A stretch of 64,000 nucleotides of DNA, from positions 17,362 to 81,361 of the IMG/VR virus record IMGVR_UViG_3300020371_000005. One strand, given 5' to 3'. Below the pieces are notes generated by a model. That model had not been told where the DNA came from and made no database searches. It saw only the letters and a list, made by a program, of their open reading frames with translations. The stretch is from a virus. Every line of letters begins with the position of its first letter. Position 1 is the first letter of the stretch. Both the position numbers and the translations under genes were made by a program. This document shows, piece after piece, positions 2-19,900 of the stretch.

Positions 2-190
2 GCAGCTAAGGACTACAAGAAGGCAGAACTTGTTGAATTCTATGAGTCTATGAACTCTAAGCAGTTCCAAGACGTTCAGAAGTTCTTCGAGACTATGCCC
101 AAGTTGAGTCACCAGATTGAACTATTCAATCCTAAGACTGAGGTTACCAGCACTATTACTCTTGAAGGTCTAGCGGCTTTTTTCGCGTAG
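2..190 (+). CDS. 26: gp26-like baseplate/tail assembly protein, C-terminal part (5' end outside window)
   Basis: The reading frame is open from the first bases and ends at TAG 188-190, giving the last 62 residues. The pattern FFETMPKLSHQIELFNPKT followed by LEGLAAFF resembles the T4 gp26-type base plate family seen in T4-like phages. In T4, gp26 helps assemble the central baseplate hub. The gene lies directly upstream of two tape-measure-like genes, the position held in many tailed phages by the tail assembly chaperone. Its last sense codons TTT TTC form a slippery heptamer T-TTT-TTC (178-184), so part of the ribosomes may shift into the -1 frame (next entry). Family call from motif and synteny; moderate confidence because only a fragment is visible. 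Confidence 0.6.
   Translation, partial: AAKDYKKAELVEFYESMNSKQFQDVQKFFETMPKLSHQIELFNPKTEVTSTITLEGLAAFFA
178..184 (+). promoter_or_regulatory. candidate -1 programmed ribosomal frameshift site TTTTTTC
   Basis: The sequence is in the required phase X-XXY-YYZ relative to the gp26-like frame (codons TTT 179-181 and TTC 182-184). Zero-frame termination follows two codons later. The upstream AAGG and the short partially self-complementary stretch after the slip (around 185-198) could stimulate shifting. Confidence 0.6.
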
Positions 191-384
191 CCCTAGCGCA
201 CGACTCTCTGTTGAACTTGTATGAGACGAATTTCGCTCTTATGCAACACCACAAGTACAGTCTGACTGAACTTGAAAATATGATGCCCTGGGAGAGGGAT
301 GTGTATGTGAACCTTCTGCTTAGATACCTTCGAGAGGAGGAAGCTAGACAGAGGCAAGCAAACGGACAACATCAATCACTTTAA
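184..384 (+). CDS. -1 frameshift extension of the gp26-like gene (gp51/GT-like domain)
   Basis: After the slippery heptamer at 178-184 the -1 frame stays open for 66 codons to TAA 382-384 and reads RVALAHDSLLNLYETNFALM, then SLTELENMMPWERDVYVNLL and an acidic-basic helix. There is no good start codon near its 5' end: the first in-frame ATG is at about 241 without a clear ribosome site, whereas the frame joins gp26 exactly at the slip site. A Shine-Dalgarno-like AAGG at 165-168 lies about nine bases before the heptamer, as in known bacterial -1 frameshift signals. The MPWERDVYV motif resembles the extension domains of tail assembly chaperones (lambda gpGT type). In cyanophage annotations a separate gp51-like protein may be drawn here. 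The TAA overlaps the ATG of the next gene. Confidence 0.6.
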   Translation, partial: RVALAHDSLLNLYETNFALMQHHKYSLTELENMMPWERDVYVNLLLRYLREEEARQRQANGQHQSL

Positions 385-2759
385 TGGCAGCACTAAAAGT
401 AAGATCATTTTTACCAACTACGGTACAGGGTAGTCCACGTGTGGACCCTATCGCAGGTCTTACTACGTCTGTTAATCGCCTGGGGACTGTTGTAGAAGAT
501 CTAGGAAAAATCCTGACTGGAATGCATCAGGATAAGATGGATCTCCTCAACCAACAGCAGAGAACTGCGAACTTTGGGCGAGATAGATCGAGAGAAAACA
601 GACTTGAACAGGATGTAGAAAAGGGTGTAAAAAAAGATAAGTCATTACAGAAAACATCAAAGAAGAGTAAAGGGTGGTTGGATGCGTTTTTAGAACCATT
701 CATTTGGATTGCAGAGAAGGCAATCACATTCTTTATGTTGGATTGGTTAGCTGATCCAAAGAATGAACAATTTCTTAGGACGACTCTACCTATTATTGGT
801 GGGTGGTTAAAAACTGCCTGGGATATTGGTACAGCGTCAGTCAATATGATTATGGAGGCATTCTCAGAAGATAGTCTTCTGATGGGTGCTTTGAAACTGG
901 TGGGTGGCATCGGTGGACTTTGGTTGGTGGGACGCATCTTGCGTCCGTGGAAGATTGCGAGTGATATTGGCAAGTTGATGAGACTTGTCAGTGGTAATAG
1001 GAAAAATACTGCTCCAAAACCACAGTCGCCACAGCAGATAAGAGCAGCAACAGCAGCGCAGCGTAATCGTAATGCTAGTATTGCTGCGAAGGAGAGATTT
1101 AGAAAGAGATATGGTGATGCTGCATACAATAGAAGGTTTGGTCCCAGTAAACTACAGAGAGTTAAACAAGGTTTAGGAAGTAATATTAGGAAAGGTCTGA
1201 CAAATTCTAAGGTGATGGCTGGCGGTGCTGGTCTCATTTCCTTTGGAACTAGACTGGCACAGGGAGACAGCGTTCAGAAGGCAGCAGGTGGTGGTATTGG
1301 TGCAACCATCGGTTCGATGGCACTTACAGCACTGATTACACCTATCCTGGGTCCATTTGCACCACTGGTTGGTAGTGTTCTTGGTGGATTCCTTGGTGAT
1401 AAAGTTGGTGCGTTTATTGGTGAAGCAATCACACCAATTCTCAAACCAATGAAGACGCTGTTTATGGAGGTTCTACTTCCAATAATCACGTCATACTTTG
1501 AACCTCTTCTCCCACCTGTTCAGGAGTTGTTCAACGAACTTGGTCCTATTCTGCAGATGATTGCAGACTTCTGTAAACCTCTGATTGATGGTGCAGTTCA
1601 AGAGATTGCAAAGTTCTTAGGTGGAAATATTGCTAAGGCAGTCAACGGATTGATGTGGTTGATCAAGTTTGGTGCCAATGCTGTCTCTGGAATTGTTGAA
1701 GGTACTGGTAGAGTCCTGAGGAAAATAGACTTTATGGGTCTATTCAAAGATGATGTAGTAAAAGCGGAAGAGAAACTGCGAGGTGCAGTAAATGACGTAG
1801 AGAGTGCCAAAGCACTGATTGCAAAACGGGAAGCTATTGTTAAAGAAAAAGGTCCTAACCATAAGGACTGGTTTGATAATACAACCGCCGCTCAAGATGT
1901 TCAAGATGCTAGAAAACAATATGAGGCTGCCGTTGCTCTTGTTGAGGTAAGAAAAAAAGAACTAGCAAAAGCAAAGTCTGAGCAAGAAGCGAAAGCTACT
2001 CAGGCAATGGCGGAGGAGCAGGCAAGAATAGATGCTCAGTCTAAAGATGATTCTGGTGGCGGTGATGGTAGAATACCTATCAGTGCTTCTGGTGTCACTG
2101 CTGCTGCGAAGAAAGTCATTGGTAAGTACCAAGGCGTCAGCAATATGTGCGCGATGTCTGTTCGTGCATACTTGAAGGCAGCAGGTCATCCAAAGTGGGA
2201 TACGATTGCTACCAAGACAGGTAACCTTGATCCTGACGGTACACAGTTCATTGGACCAACATTTGCAGCATCATTTGCTGGTACTGACCTCGGTCAGCAT
2301 ATTATGGACAAGTCCAAACTGAAACCTGGAGACATTCTTCTCTATAGAGATACCATAACTGGTTTCACTCCTGGTGCCGTCACACACGTCGGTGTGATGG
2401 GAGAGAATGGTATGCAGTATGACCACAACTCAAGAAATGGTTTCCACGCCCGATCCCTTTCAAGTGTGTTGACCTGGGCTAAGTGGGGTGGTGGTATCAG
2501 ACTGAAGGGTATGCCATCACAGGATTCTCCTGCAGATATGGTAGCTACCAAGGTAGATCCTAGTAGTGATCTAAATAATAGGAAGACCGAATTGATTAGT
2601 AGATCCGAATCGGAATCCACTACACAACTACAAAATGAAAGTGGCGCAGATCCTAAAGTGATCTTGCAACCGATAATCAAACCCGCAGTTGTCACCGCTT
2701 CTAGCGGAGGCGGAGGAGCAACTCTTGTTCCTGGGTCAGTCTCTACCTCAGTTAGCTAA
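384..2759 (+). CDS. tape-measure-like tail protein with C-terminal NlpC/P60- or CHAP-like cysteine peptidase domain
   Basis: This 791-residue protein has a basic, helical N-terminus, a segment ending in FFMLDWLADPKN, a long glycine/alanine-rich hydrophobic stretch (about residues 300-350), helical repeats and an acidic-basic coiled coil (about 455-555). A C-terminal globular domain (about 575-710) carries a cysteine in NMCAMSV (C589), a GDILLY turn and a histidine in THVGVM (H668), the arrangement of NlpC/P60 or CHAP cysteine peptidases. Such domains on tape-measure proteins locally open peptidoglycan during injection. It is a paralogue of the next gene (shared R-D-R-x-R-E-x-R-L-E and LDWL-x-DP-x-N motifs). 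Its position after the gp26-like gene and before the gp27-like hub fits the T4 gp29 tape-measure slot, although direct gp29 homology is not visible. Confidence 0.6.
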   Translation: MAALKVRSFLPTTVQGSPRVDPIAGLTTSVNRLGTVVEDLGKILTGMHQDKMDLLNQQQRTANFGRDRSRENRLEQDVEKGVKKDKSLQKTSKKSKGWLDAFLEPFIWIAEKAITFFMLDWLADPKNEQFLRTTLPIIGGWLKTAWDIGTASVNMIMEAFSEDSLLMGALKLVGGIGGLWLVGRILRPWKIASDIGKLMRLVSGNRKNTAPKPQSPQQIRAATAAQRNRNASIAAKERFRKRYGDAAYNRRFGPSKLQRVKQGLGSNIRKGLTNSKVMAGGAGLISFGTRLAQGDSVQKAAGGGIGATIGSMALTALITPILGPFAPLVGSVLGGFLGDKVGAFIGEAITPILKPMKTLFMEVLLPIITSYFEPLLPPVQELFNELGPILQMIADFCKPLIDGAVQEIAKFLGGNIAKAVNGLMWLIKFGANAVSGIVEGTGRVLRKIDFMGLFKDDVVKAEEKLRGAVNDVESAKALIAKREAIVKEKGPNHKDWFDNTTAAQDVQDARKQYEAAVALVEVRKKELAKAKSEQEAKATQAMAEEQARIDAQSKDDSGGGDGRIPISASGVTAAAKKVIGKYQGVSNMCAMSVRAYLKAAGHPKWDTIATKTGNLDPDGTQFIGPTFAASFAGTDLGQHIMDKSKLKPGDILLYRDTITGFTPGAVTHVGVMGENGMQYDHNSRNGFHARSLSSVLTWAKWGGGIRLKGMPSQDSPADMVATKVDPSSDLNNRKTELISRSESESTTQLQNESGADPKVILQPIIKPAVVTASSGGGGATLVPGSVSTSVS

Positions 2760-4789
2760 TGGCAGAAGCGAAATCAAAAATTAGATTTTACAAGTATGTA
2801 ACCCCACCTAAAGATGCGGGTGCAACGATTAGCGTAGGAAATAAGACCATTGCTGGGTCAAATTTCACGGCAACTATAAATGCAGTTAATTCCCTGGGTG
2901 CAACTGTAAACAGTATTGCTGTAGCATTACAGGGTCAACGTGCAGCTCAGCAGACAGCTCAGGCACAAGCAGACAGGAGAGCACAGTTACAAAGGGATAG
3001 AAATAGAGAGGGTAGATTAGAATCTACAAAAGGCAAAGCAAAAGAAATTGTTGGTGGTGTTGTAAAGGGTGGTGCAAGTTTCCTTGAGAGTTTATTTAAG
3101 TTCCTTAAAGATTTCCTGATCTTTACAGCATTGGATTGGTTATCCGATCCAGCGAATCGAGAGAGAATACAAAAGGTAGTCGATGGAATAGGTAACTTCT
3201 TCAACTGGATGAGGGATACCTTTAATTGGGTGACGGAATGGATTAGTGAAAACTGGGAGAAAACATTTGGCGAAGACAAGACCTGGCGAGAACGATTAGA
3301 AGGTGCCAGCGGTCTATTACTTGGTGCTGGTGCAGCCTTATTGGGTCTTGCGTTCCTGAGGGATCCTATTGGGACGATTGCCAACTTCACAAAGATCATT
3401 ACCACAGTTGGTAAAGGTATTCTGAACATTGGTAAAGCACTTGGTGGGACTGCGTTAGGTCAAGTTGCTATGGGTGCTACCCAAGGATACTTTGCCTATC
3501 AGGACGTGATGGAGAACTACGATGGTCCTGAAGAGGATCGAGTAGCAGCAGCACGTGGGGCAGCTGCAGGTACTACTGTTGGTGCTGTTGGACTTGGAAT
3601 GCTTGGCAACAAGATTGCTGGTCCTCTTGGTGGTATCATTGGTAATGCTCTGGGTGGTTTCCTAGGTAAGGAGGCAGGTAAGTTCCTAGGACCAATCGTT
3701 GGTGACTTCTTCAATACATTGCAGGATGTCTTCGGGGGAATTATGAAATTCCTGGAAGAGACGTTCAAACCAGTTGGTGAAGCACTGGAACAACTGTTTG
3801 TTGAGATGGGTCCTGCTATTGATAAACTGACTCAGTTCATCAAACCACACTTACCCAAATTAAAAGAAATTGCAGAATTTATTGGTAAGATTGCATTTCA
3901 ACCACTAATTTTACTTCTGAAAGGTGTCACCAATCTATTGAAGTTGGTAAATGGTGGTAAAGCAGAAGATCCAACTAAGTCTACAGAAAGTACAGAAGAA
4001 AAATCTGCTGGTGGACTGTTTAGAATGCCACCCCTGCTGTCGAAGGGTGGATGGATCAGTGGACCACAATCTGGTTACCCAGTGTCTATGGATGGCGGTA
4101 AGTCCGTTTCCTTTATCGGTCACGGAACAGAATATGTCGCACAAAGATCCTCAGGCGGTTTCGTCATACCTTTTGATACCCCCCATACTAGAAGAGATCC
4201 TGGTCTGACGAGTCGTCGGATGGCACAGGCAAAATCGTATGGTTACAAAACACCTGAGTTTTCCATTGGTGGACAGTTTAACTATGCAAATGCATTTACA
4301 CCGACATTCAACAAAACGGTCAATATCCCATCTCCTACATATAGCAAATTGCCCCAACGTAGTATTGGTGGTTTCGTAAAAGGTATTGCATCTGCCGCTG
4401 GATCTATATTTGGTGGACCCGCAGTTGGTGCTGCAATGGGTATGCTTGGTAACGTTGCTGGAGCAGCACAGAACATCACTAAAGCAGCGATGCCTGTTAT
4501 CAGTTCTGTCATCCCTGGTGGTAATATTACTGGTAAGTTCCTGTCAGATGCTTTGGCAAAGGTTAAAACTGCTGCTGCCGAAGTTAAAGCAGGCAATATG
4601 GAAGAAGCAGTCAAAACAATCGTTGCCGAAGCGATTGTGCTGCCAACTGCTACTTCACAGACTGGTGCAGCAGGTGGAGAAGGTACACCTGTTCCTATTC
4701 CCTCGGCAGAAAACCCTGCTACAGATTTCTTGAAGAGCAGATTTGGTTCATTTGCCGAACTTGCTAACCCATTGAGTAACTTCTTCTAA
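2759..4789 (+). CDS. tape-measure-like tail protein, paralogue of the preceding gene
   Basis: This 676-residue protein overlaps the preceding stop codon by one base (TAATG). Its N-terminal half repeats the layout of the upstream protein: a polar helix with QRDRNREGRLE, a hydrophobic helix with FTALDWLSDPANR, then a glycine-rich membrane-like segment around GPLGGIIGNALGGFLG. It lacks the cysteine-peptidase domain and ends in glycine-rich hydrophobic sequence. It is probably a tail-lumen or tape-measure component acting with its paralogue; which of the two sets tail length cannot be decided here. The ATG overlap with both neighbours suggests translational coupling from the gp26-like gene through the hub gene. 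Confidence 0.55.
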   Translation: MAEAKSKIRFYKYVTPPKDAGATISVGNKTIAGSNFTATINAVNSLGATVNSIAVALQGQRAAQQTAQAQADRRAQLQRDRNREGRLESTKGKAKEIVGGVVKGGASFLESLFKFLKDFLIFTALDWLSDPANRERIQKVVDGIGNFFNWMRDTFNWVTEWISENWEKTFGEDKTWRERLEGASGLLLGAGAALLGLAFLRDPIGTIANFTKIITTVGKGILNIGKALGGTALGQVAMGATQGYFAYQDVMENYDGPEEDRVAAARGAAAGTTVGAVGLGMLGNKIAGPLGGIIGNALGGFLGKEAGKFLGPIVGDFFNTLQDVFGGIMKFLEETFKPVGEALEQLFVEMGPAIDKLTQFIKPHLPKLKEIAEFIGKIAFQPLILLLKGVTNLLKLVNGGKAEDPTKSTESTEEKSAGGLFRMPPLLSKGGWISGPQSGYPVSMDGGKSVSFIGHGTEYVAQRSSGGFVIPFDTPHTRRDPGLTSRRMAQAKSYGYKTPEFSIGGQFNYANAFTPTFNKTVNIPSPTYSKLPQRSIGGFVKGIASAAGSIFGGPAVGAAMGMLGNVAGAAQNITKAAMPVISSVIPGGNITGKFLSDALAKVKTAAAEVKAGNMEEAVKTIVAEAIVLPTATSQTGAAGGEGTPVPIPSAENPATDFLKSRFGSFAELANPLSNFF

Positions 4790-16973: not shown

Positions 16974-19900
16974 ATGGCACTAACTCGTCTTAAGAATATT
17001 ATCACGTCTAGGACGGGACGTATTATCTACGTCAACCCTGACGACTTCGATGCATCGGACGCATACGACAATAGAGGTAACTCGGCACTGCGTCCGTTCA
17101 AGACGTTGCAACGTGCCTTCCTTGAAGTGGCAAGGTTCTCCTATCGAGTTGGTCTGAGTAATGACGAATTCGATGCATTCTCCATTTACTTGTATCCTTC
17201 TGAGTATGTTCTAGATAATCGCCCTGGTACTTCTAACTTTAACGAGATTACTCCGTTTGACGAGAATACCAACTTTGATTTAACATCACCCAACAACATC
17301 TTATATAAGTTCAACTCTGTAAACGGTGGTATCATCTGCCCTAGAGGTGTTTCTGTTGTTGGTTCTGACCTTCGTCGTACGAAGATCATTCCTAAGTATG
17401 TGCCATATCCAACGATCAATGCATCGCTTGGTATCACATCTGCTAACGAACCTGGAACTTCTGCAATCTTCAGACTGACTGGTGGTTGTTATTTCTGGCA
17501 GATGTCATTCTTTGATGGTGACAACAATGGTGTTTACTATCGTCCTGACGTAACAGAGACGATTGCACCTAACTTCTCTCACCATAAGATCACTTGTTTC
17601 GAGTACGCTAACACAACTGATCTGGATCTTTATTACCAGAAGATCTCGAAAGCATACGCTACAATTCCTGATACCTCTGGTACGATTGCACAAGACCAGT
17701 TGCAAGCAAGGGTCGAAGAAAACAGAATCGTTGGTCCGATTTCCGACGAATTCCGTGTTTCTCAGATCATTAGAAACGGTCAAACTGCAACAGCATTTAC
17801 TGTTGATATTCAGGACAACCCAGTTAACCACGGTTTCTCTGTGGGTGTTGCTGTTAATATTTCTGGTGTTACTGGACCAACAGAAACCGACTCGAACCTG
17901 TATAATGGTTCTTTCCTTGTTACATCTGCACAGGGTAACCAGTTTACCTATCAGATGTCAGCAGAACCATCAGGTAACGCAATCGGTTCCAACGTTCTTG
18001 TGAAGGTTGAGATTGATACGGTTGACTCTGCATCACCTTATGTGTTTAACTGTTCATTGAGATCTGTTTGGGGTATCAATGGAATGCACGCCGATGGTGC
18101 TGAAGCAACTGGTTTCAAATCGATGGTTGTGGCACAGTTCACGGGTATCTCTCTCCAAAAAGATGACCGTGCTTTCGTGCTATATAACCCGTCAACAGGT
18201 AACTATGAAGCACAAGCGGCGGGATCTGGCGCACACATTAACGGTCTATGCAAATACCGTAAAGGATGGCGTCACGTTCATATCAAAGCATCCAACGACG
18301 CATTCATTCAGGTTGTGTCTGTGTTTGCTGTGGGATTTGGTGACCATTTCTTCAGTGATAGCGGTGGCGACCTTTCTATTACTAACAGTAACTCAAACTT
18401 CGGAAACACCTCCCTGCGATCCAAAGGATTTAAGTCAGCAGCGTTTACAAAGGATAAAGCAGGTCAGATAACACATATTATTCCACCTAAAGGAATCTCT
18501 GATGTTGCTGAGGTTTCTATTAACTGGGTGACATTTGATATTAACAAGATCCGTGCAGCAGCAGATCCTACAAAACTGTATCTGTACGGTTATACAAACG
18601 AGAACGCAAAACCCCCTAGTAAGATTCAGGGTTATACAATCGGTGCACGTAGAGATTCACCTACACTGCCTGATAAGATTAACGTTCTCTTGGTTGCATC
18701 TGGTGCAAACGCACCTACAACTCACACTGCAAAGATCGATCCCTCTGGTCCTACAGTGACGGGTACATCTCCTGGAGATGATGAATCCCCGATCAAGTAT
18801 GATCCTAACCAGTCTAACTGGTACTTGCAGGTTGACTCTGCAAACAATGACATTTATACTACTCTGATTGCGAACTCGCAGTATCAGAACCTGGGCTTTA
18901 CACCGACATCCTTCATCCGTCGTGTGCCTGATGCTCGTGACCTGAAGGACAGAATTTACCGTTTCCGCTACGTTCTTGACAAAGACGCATTCCCAATCCC
19001 CCGTGAACCCATTACTGGTTTCGTGGTGGAACCTAGATCTTCGGAGACGAACTCTCCTGCATATGATAAGACATACTACATCTACGAAGTAGAAACTTAT
19101 CAAGAGTTTGAGCGTGGTGTTGCTGATGGTATCTACTATCTGACATTCCTGAACGCATCGGTTTCTCCTGCAACGTCTAACTTCGACGACTTTGCATTCT
19201 CACAACAGACTGTTGACTTGTATCCTGCATTCGACAGAGACAACCCTGTTGCTGACCCTGGTCCTGCTATCTCTGTTGCAGATAATGATGTTCTGGGTCT
19301 GGTTAGAACAACTGATGGTGCAACTCCTACTCCTAATGAAGACACTAAACTGTCTATTACTAAGGAAACATCACAGTTCTTCCTGCTTGAGCAAGAGAAC
19401 AACCTTGGTTACAATACCACATCCAACACACTGAATAGTATTGTTGTTACTGCACGTTTGGGTGATGAGGAAGAAAGAAAGATTCCTTTGAAACTGAATG
19501 CAGACAACTCTGTTGCACCTATCCTCTGTGAATTGAGAAGATACTCGATTCTTAGAGCATCTGGTCACACGTTTGAGTATCTTGGTTTCGGTCCTGGTAA
19601 CTATTCAACTGCATTCCCATCTACTCAGGTGGAAGTGTTGTCACCAGCACAGGTTAGACTGTCACAGTCACTAAAAGAAGCAGCAGGTGTTGCATACTAC
19701 TCTGGTGTGAACTCTGATGGTGAACTGTTCGTTGGTAACCAGGTGATTAACCCTGTTACGGGTCAGATCACAAACGAAGATATTGCACAGTTGAATGTCT
19801 TGGGTGAAGAAGGTACAACTATTGAGACCTTCTCTGAGATCGTTCTTACCGACAAACTGACTGTTATCGGTGGTGCATCTAACCAGTTGGAATCTGTCTT

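Follow-up and report, generated by a model that had tools for sequence, protein, structure and literature searches.

A conserved T run and a predicted −1 frameshift yielding short and long tail assembly chaperones in T4-like phages

We suggest that a single gene in this marine phage gives rise to a short and a long tail assembly chaperone (TAC) by −1 ribosomal frameshifting, in the manner of phage lambda, and we put the probability of this reading at about 0.95. The window analysed is a stretch of 64,000 nucleotides (positions 17,362 to 81,361) of the 81,361-base virus record IMGVR_UViG_3300020371_000005, and the piece of the record that precedes it supplied the 5′ part of the gene. All features described here lie on the plus strand. 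The 3′ part of the gp26-like gene, whose product we assign as the short chaperone (TAC-N, with a role like that of lambda gpG), occupies positions 1–190 and its reading frame ends GCG GCT TTT TTC GCG TAG (173–190). This contains the putative slippery heptamer T_TTT_TTC (178–184), and the TAG that ends the short form (188–190) is the second codon past it. The −1 frame opens at 166, after a TGA at 163–165, and supplies an extension at 184–384 (66 residues, RVALAHDSLL...GQHQSL, then TAA), predicted to be the C-terminal domain of the long form. The first-pass annotation had singled out this junction, and its statements about the sequence proved exact on re-reading: the heptamer is phased for a −1 slip, AAGG is present at 165–168, nine bases 5′ of the heptamer, the −1 frame runs up to the ATG of the next large open reading frame (the TAA at 382–384 overlaps the ATG at 384–386 by one base, an A), and that frame has no usable start at its 5′ end, the first candidates being TTG 211 and ATG 241, both without a Shine–Dalgarno sequence. 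The interval it gave was 150–384; the whole gene encodes 234 amino acids and starts 515 bases 5′ of the window (G000:C1:16847). The long form is predicted to yield the junction peptides LAAFFR and FFRVALAHDSLL....

The T run is conserved to a degree that excludes a chance origin. Eighty homologues of the −1 extension were gathered from viral contigs with the heptamer left out of the search, and to these were added the named phages P-SSM2, syn9, S-WAM1, S-H34, ACG-2014c, Mosig, phiN3, D490 and Desulfovibrio phage 7757 as well as distant contigs, KVP40 among them. The resulting 105 homologous loci (77 of them non-redundant at <90% identity) range from cyanophages to phages of Pelagibacter, Vibrio (KVP40), Sinorhizobium and Desulfovibrio. 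TTTTTT is found in the same phase in every one of them (105/105 and 77/77). The seventh base of the heptamer is C in 56, T in 15 and A in 6 of the non-redundant loci, and all three allow re-pairing. The 0-frame stop is the second codon past the heptamer in 62 of the 77 and is never more than 24 nt away. When the 77 genes were placed on a tree, neither the wobble position preceding the first Phe codon nor the third base of that codon changed at all; third bases in 222 other columns show a mean of 27.7 changes on the same tree, with a minimum of 6. As a control, a Phe-Phe pair in the same gene, 30-odd codons upstream, is written T_TTT_TTY in 2 of 61 sequences. TTTTTTC is rarer in the window than expected (8 occurrences against 16.25). 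A comparison of the junction across other cyanophages, which the first-pass annotation had proposed, thus finds the heptamer and the −1 frame conserved and the start codon not.

The −1 frame bears the marks of a translated sequence from the slip onwards. Over the first 18 codons pN/pS is 0.19 in the −1 frame compared with 1.19 and 1.82 in the other two frames; purifying selection in the −1 frame starts at the first codon past the slip. This bears directly on the alternative in which the −1 open reading frame stands as an independent short gene, gp51, that starts at, for example, ATG 241 or TTG 211 and is perhaps translationally coupled to the gp26 stop. Databases do annotate gp51 in this way, with various starts, and an ATG, GTG or TTG lies within the first 19 codons in 63 of the 77 loci. 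However, these codons are conserved neither in place nor in kind, 14 of the 77 loci have none before codon 20, and a start behind a four-base Shine–Dalgarno core occurs at only 2; in the Desulfovibrio phage, ATG, GTG and TTG are all absent from the whole −1 reading frame. The strongly constrained residues 1–18 lie ahead of the candidate starts, and a separate gene would leave the invariant T run unexplained. At 7 of the 77 loci, moreover, the −1 frame is interrupted by a stop 6 nt ahead of the extension's first codon, which leaves the T run as the only point of entry. We consider a separate gene quite improbable. The annotated start of gp51 varies between public records, some of which omit it, as is expected if the −1 frame has no start of its own; in S-WAM1 and ACG-2014c, the extension is unannotated (L092:2129-2320 and L094:2007-2185).

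Two other explanations of the frame change were considered. A homopolymer run in all loci is what slippage by RNA polymerase, giving a mixed mRNA population, would call for. Transcriptional slippage usually needs a run of about nine, though, and here the run is just six Ts in 62 of the 77 loci (where the seventh base is C or A), while the X_XXY_YYZ phase and the Shine–Dalgarno-like element nine bases upstream fit slippage by the ribosome; we regard polymerase slippage as highly improbable. The last reading is that the gene is broken or that the sequence contains an error of sequencing or assembly, homopolymers being a frequent source of artefactual frame breaks. Its probability is negligible, and it is refuted by conservation: 105 independently assembled loci show the same arrangement, as do finished isolates such as P-SSM2, KVP40, syn9 and phiN3.

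Candidate stimulators lie on both sides of the heptamer. Upstream, the Shine–Dalgarno-like GAAGG at 164–168 is a proposed stimulator of the −1 frameshift. Among the relatives, pairing with the anti-Shine–Dalgarno sequence has its minimum in 9-mers starting 15–16 bases before the heptamer (mean −6.0 kcal/mol) against a background from −90 to +60 of −0.1 kcal/mol (sd 1.5). Glutamate codons at the element are GAG:GAA 34:16 compared with 555:1248 elsewhere in the gene (Fisher p 1.1e-7), and the element is therefore not merely a by-product of the protein sequence. Downstream, RNA folds of 40–50 nt beat their shuffled counterparts only in the stretch that immediately follows the heptamer, where mean z is about −1.3 at +12 (about −0.2 at control positions), and in some clades, a long hairpin begins soon past the heptamer. 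A single universal hairpin was considered and rejected: a 20-pair hairpin folds completely in only 3 of the 77 loci, with near-complete folding in a few relatives, and downstream structure thus looks clade-specific. In the window, the 40–50 nt directly past the heptamer show no unusual fold (z +0.6 and +1.1). A stem-loop is predicted at 217–246, within the −1 coding region (40-nt fold of −11.9 kcal/mol, z −4.8); it starts 32 nt past the heptamer, where the usual spacing is 5–9 nt, and is a possible, if distant, stimulator. The conservation of the T run, the frame-specific selection, the Shine–Dalgarno-like element and the downstream folding make −1 frameshifting at this site very likely, as far as can be judged from sequence.

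The first-pass annotation had also read the gene as a tail chaperone, a view that gains support from profile matches, gene order and a predicted fold resembling solved TACs. The gp26-like protein matches PF12322 (T4_baseplate) over residues 9–234 with E 2.6e-68 (230 bits against a cut-off of 24.5), and with the fusion as query phrog_150 is matched at E 2e-88. The −1 extension matches phrog_634 (E 3.7e-28) and in relatives carries the label 'gp51 baseplate hub assembly catalyst'. The greater part of both T4 gp26 and T4 gp51 matches PF12322 (E 8.8e-64 and 3.9e-52), and gp51, unlike gp26, carries the phrog_634 part (E 1.2e-23); T4 gp26 and gp51 are therefore the short and long forms, encoded by two genes. 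Profile alignment of the window family with the gp51 family gives a probability of 98.3 (E 1.3e-14). AF2 models of the gp26-like protein and of gp51 (pLDDT 88.9 and 89.4) have the same order of elements, with three extra C-terminal helices in gp51 where the −1 extension lies.

A search by sequence for solved structures found none. When the gp26 model was compared with 997 solved chains, the top match was the HK97 TAC 2ob9 (Z 7.3, 82 residues, 4.2 Å) and the second YqbN 3klu (Z 6.9, 83 residues, 3.9 Å), which we take to be a chaperone of the same kind from a Bacillus prophage-like element; the next chain scored 4.6. These matches span residues 1–85 only, and both have Z under 8, where chance arrangements are still common. 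Foldseek gave an E of 0.68, with no match to the gp26 model at E ≤ 0.001. No TAC was among the PDB matches listed for a T4-like gp51 model, where such a match is still possible. Taken alone, the fold match of the model to TACs is moderate evidence, with both best hits falling within the predicted class.

The gene order runs tail tube, chaperone and a large tape-measure-like reading frame. The tail tube gene lies directly upstream (phrog_45, E 7.1e-39; PF23849, 2.6e-9). The 791-amino-acid reading frame at 384–2759 is in the right position for the tape measure that the first-pass annotation had placed there; its identity is suggested by that position and by weak profile matches (to phrog_790, E 3.7e-19, and to further long proteins of phages), and it has no Pfam match. 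A peptidase-like stretch (CAMSVRAYLK...HVGVMGENG), likewise without a Pfam match, is seen in it. The following reading frame matches phrog_167 (E 3.4e-6). The N-terminal parts of the two consecutive frames, 384–2759 and 2759–4789 (791 and 676 amino acids), match the same PHROGs (790, 1200, 12696 and 17778), as if a tape-measure-like module might have been duplicated.

We propose that most ribosomes would end at the TAG at 188–190 and release the short form of 234 amino acids, the counterpart of lambda gpG. A minority would be slowed by the upstream GAAGG, with downstream RNA structure adding to the delay in many relatives, and would slip one base back on U_UUU_UUC by tandem re-pairing of tRNA-Phe. 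These ribosomes would continue in the −1 frame for a further 66 residues (LAAFF-RVALAHD...), giving the long form, the counterpart of gpGT. On the lambda model, the short form may coat the tape measure protein; the helical extension, for its part, may tie the complex of short form and tape measure to the tail tube subunit or the hub. We infer the slip and its efficiency, as well as these binding partners; the conservation and frame-specific selection are observed, as are the order of the genes and the likeness of fold.

In lambda G/GT, likewise, −1 slippage close to the 3′ end of a single gene gives a short and a long chaperone; the tail tube gene lies upstream and a large reading frame (tape-measure-like here) downstream. 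The lambda heptamer is GGGAAAG rather than T_TTT_TTC, and no sequence relation between lambda G/GT and the window gene was found; the link to HK97-type chaperones is by the N-terminal fold only. In Escherichia coli dnaX, a Shine–Dalgarno-like element lies about 10 nt before a tandem-slip heptamer, with structure downstream. The window site likewise pairs such an element with a tandem-slip heptamer; the dnaX site is A_AAA_AAG, and its frameshift product is truncated rather than extended. In Pakpunavirus/Vandenendeviridae (phage Adele), a poly-T site (GTTTTT), an open −1 frame and a long form before the tape measure are described (PMC12846349); this is another phage family, whose site and protein differ from those of the window. 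T4 resembles the window family in PF12322 membership, in the C-terminal extension of gp51 and in the fold with its C-terminal helices, but encodes the two forms in separate, divergent genes, whereas the window phage uses one gene with a frameshift and so falls in the recoded branch of PF12322. Natural long fusions as single reading frames are found in T4 gp51, 44RR gp51 and phiKT1024. The two-gene arrangement is seen in T4, 44RR, phiKT1024 and the contigs L110–L118, and is divergent in T4 and 44RR; in Vibrio phage phiKT1024 (L088:1811-3153) and the related contig L110, the genes for the two forms lie in tandem on the same strand, and this constitutes a third arrangement. In one T4-like contig (L119:2501-3246), gp51 is matched over 247 residues, but the reading frame is broken at 2860.

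A 2016 review describes the G-T frameshift as conserved in long-tailed phages, T4 excepted (PMC5009743). T4 gp26 and gp51 have been listed as hub assembly chaperones, gp51 being essential and of unknown function (PMC3004832). Vladimirov, Gautam and Davidson 2022 identified chaperones of T4-like phages, as cited in PMC10885494 and PMC12846349; some T4-like phages have, in place of the frameshift, a short gene together with a longer fusion (PMC10885494), and poly-T slip sites in T4-like chaperone genes are credited to the 2022 work by PMC12846349. The PRFect text does not mention cyanophages, nor the GeneTack paper Synechococcus. The first-pass annotation was right that the locus would unify tail assembly in T4 and lambda, but the idea is not new, having been largely anticipated by Vladimirov et al. 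2022, to judge from the results that these two papers report. The basic idea is thus already published, and the window locus is an unusually well-conserved case of it, to which we add the depth of conservation, the stimulators, the fold match and a corrected annotation of 'gp51'.

Sullivan et al. 2010 noted that gp51 of cyanophages and of a marine vibriophage is without the first ~200 residues, the cyanophage protein being only about 20% of the length of T4 gp51 (PMC3037559). The hundreds of 'gp51' genes listed for cyanophages very probably do not exist as genes and instead encode the C-terminal portion of a frameshift product, which explains this short length. In the arrangement described here, relatives of T4 show standard recoding, and T4 makes the same two products from two paralogues; these phages offer a simple system in which to study the exchange of recoding for gene duplication. 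It is possible, although we hold this at somewhat less than even odds, that one frameshift gene, with a Shine–Dalgarno-like element, an invariant U6 and a clade-specific hairpin, is common to T4-like phages from the sea, from soil and from anaerobes, and that T4 (divergent genes) and phiKT1024 (tandem genes) later and separately replaced recoding by gene duplication, a direction of change that we infer. If this is true, both the direction of change between recoding and duplication and the number of switches between them would be new.
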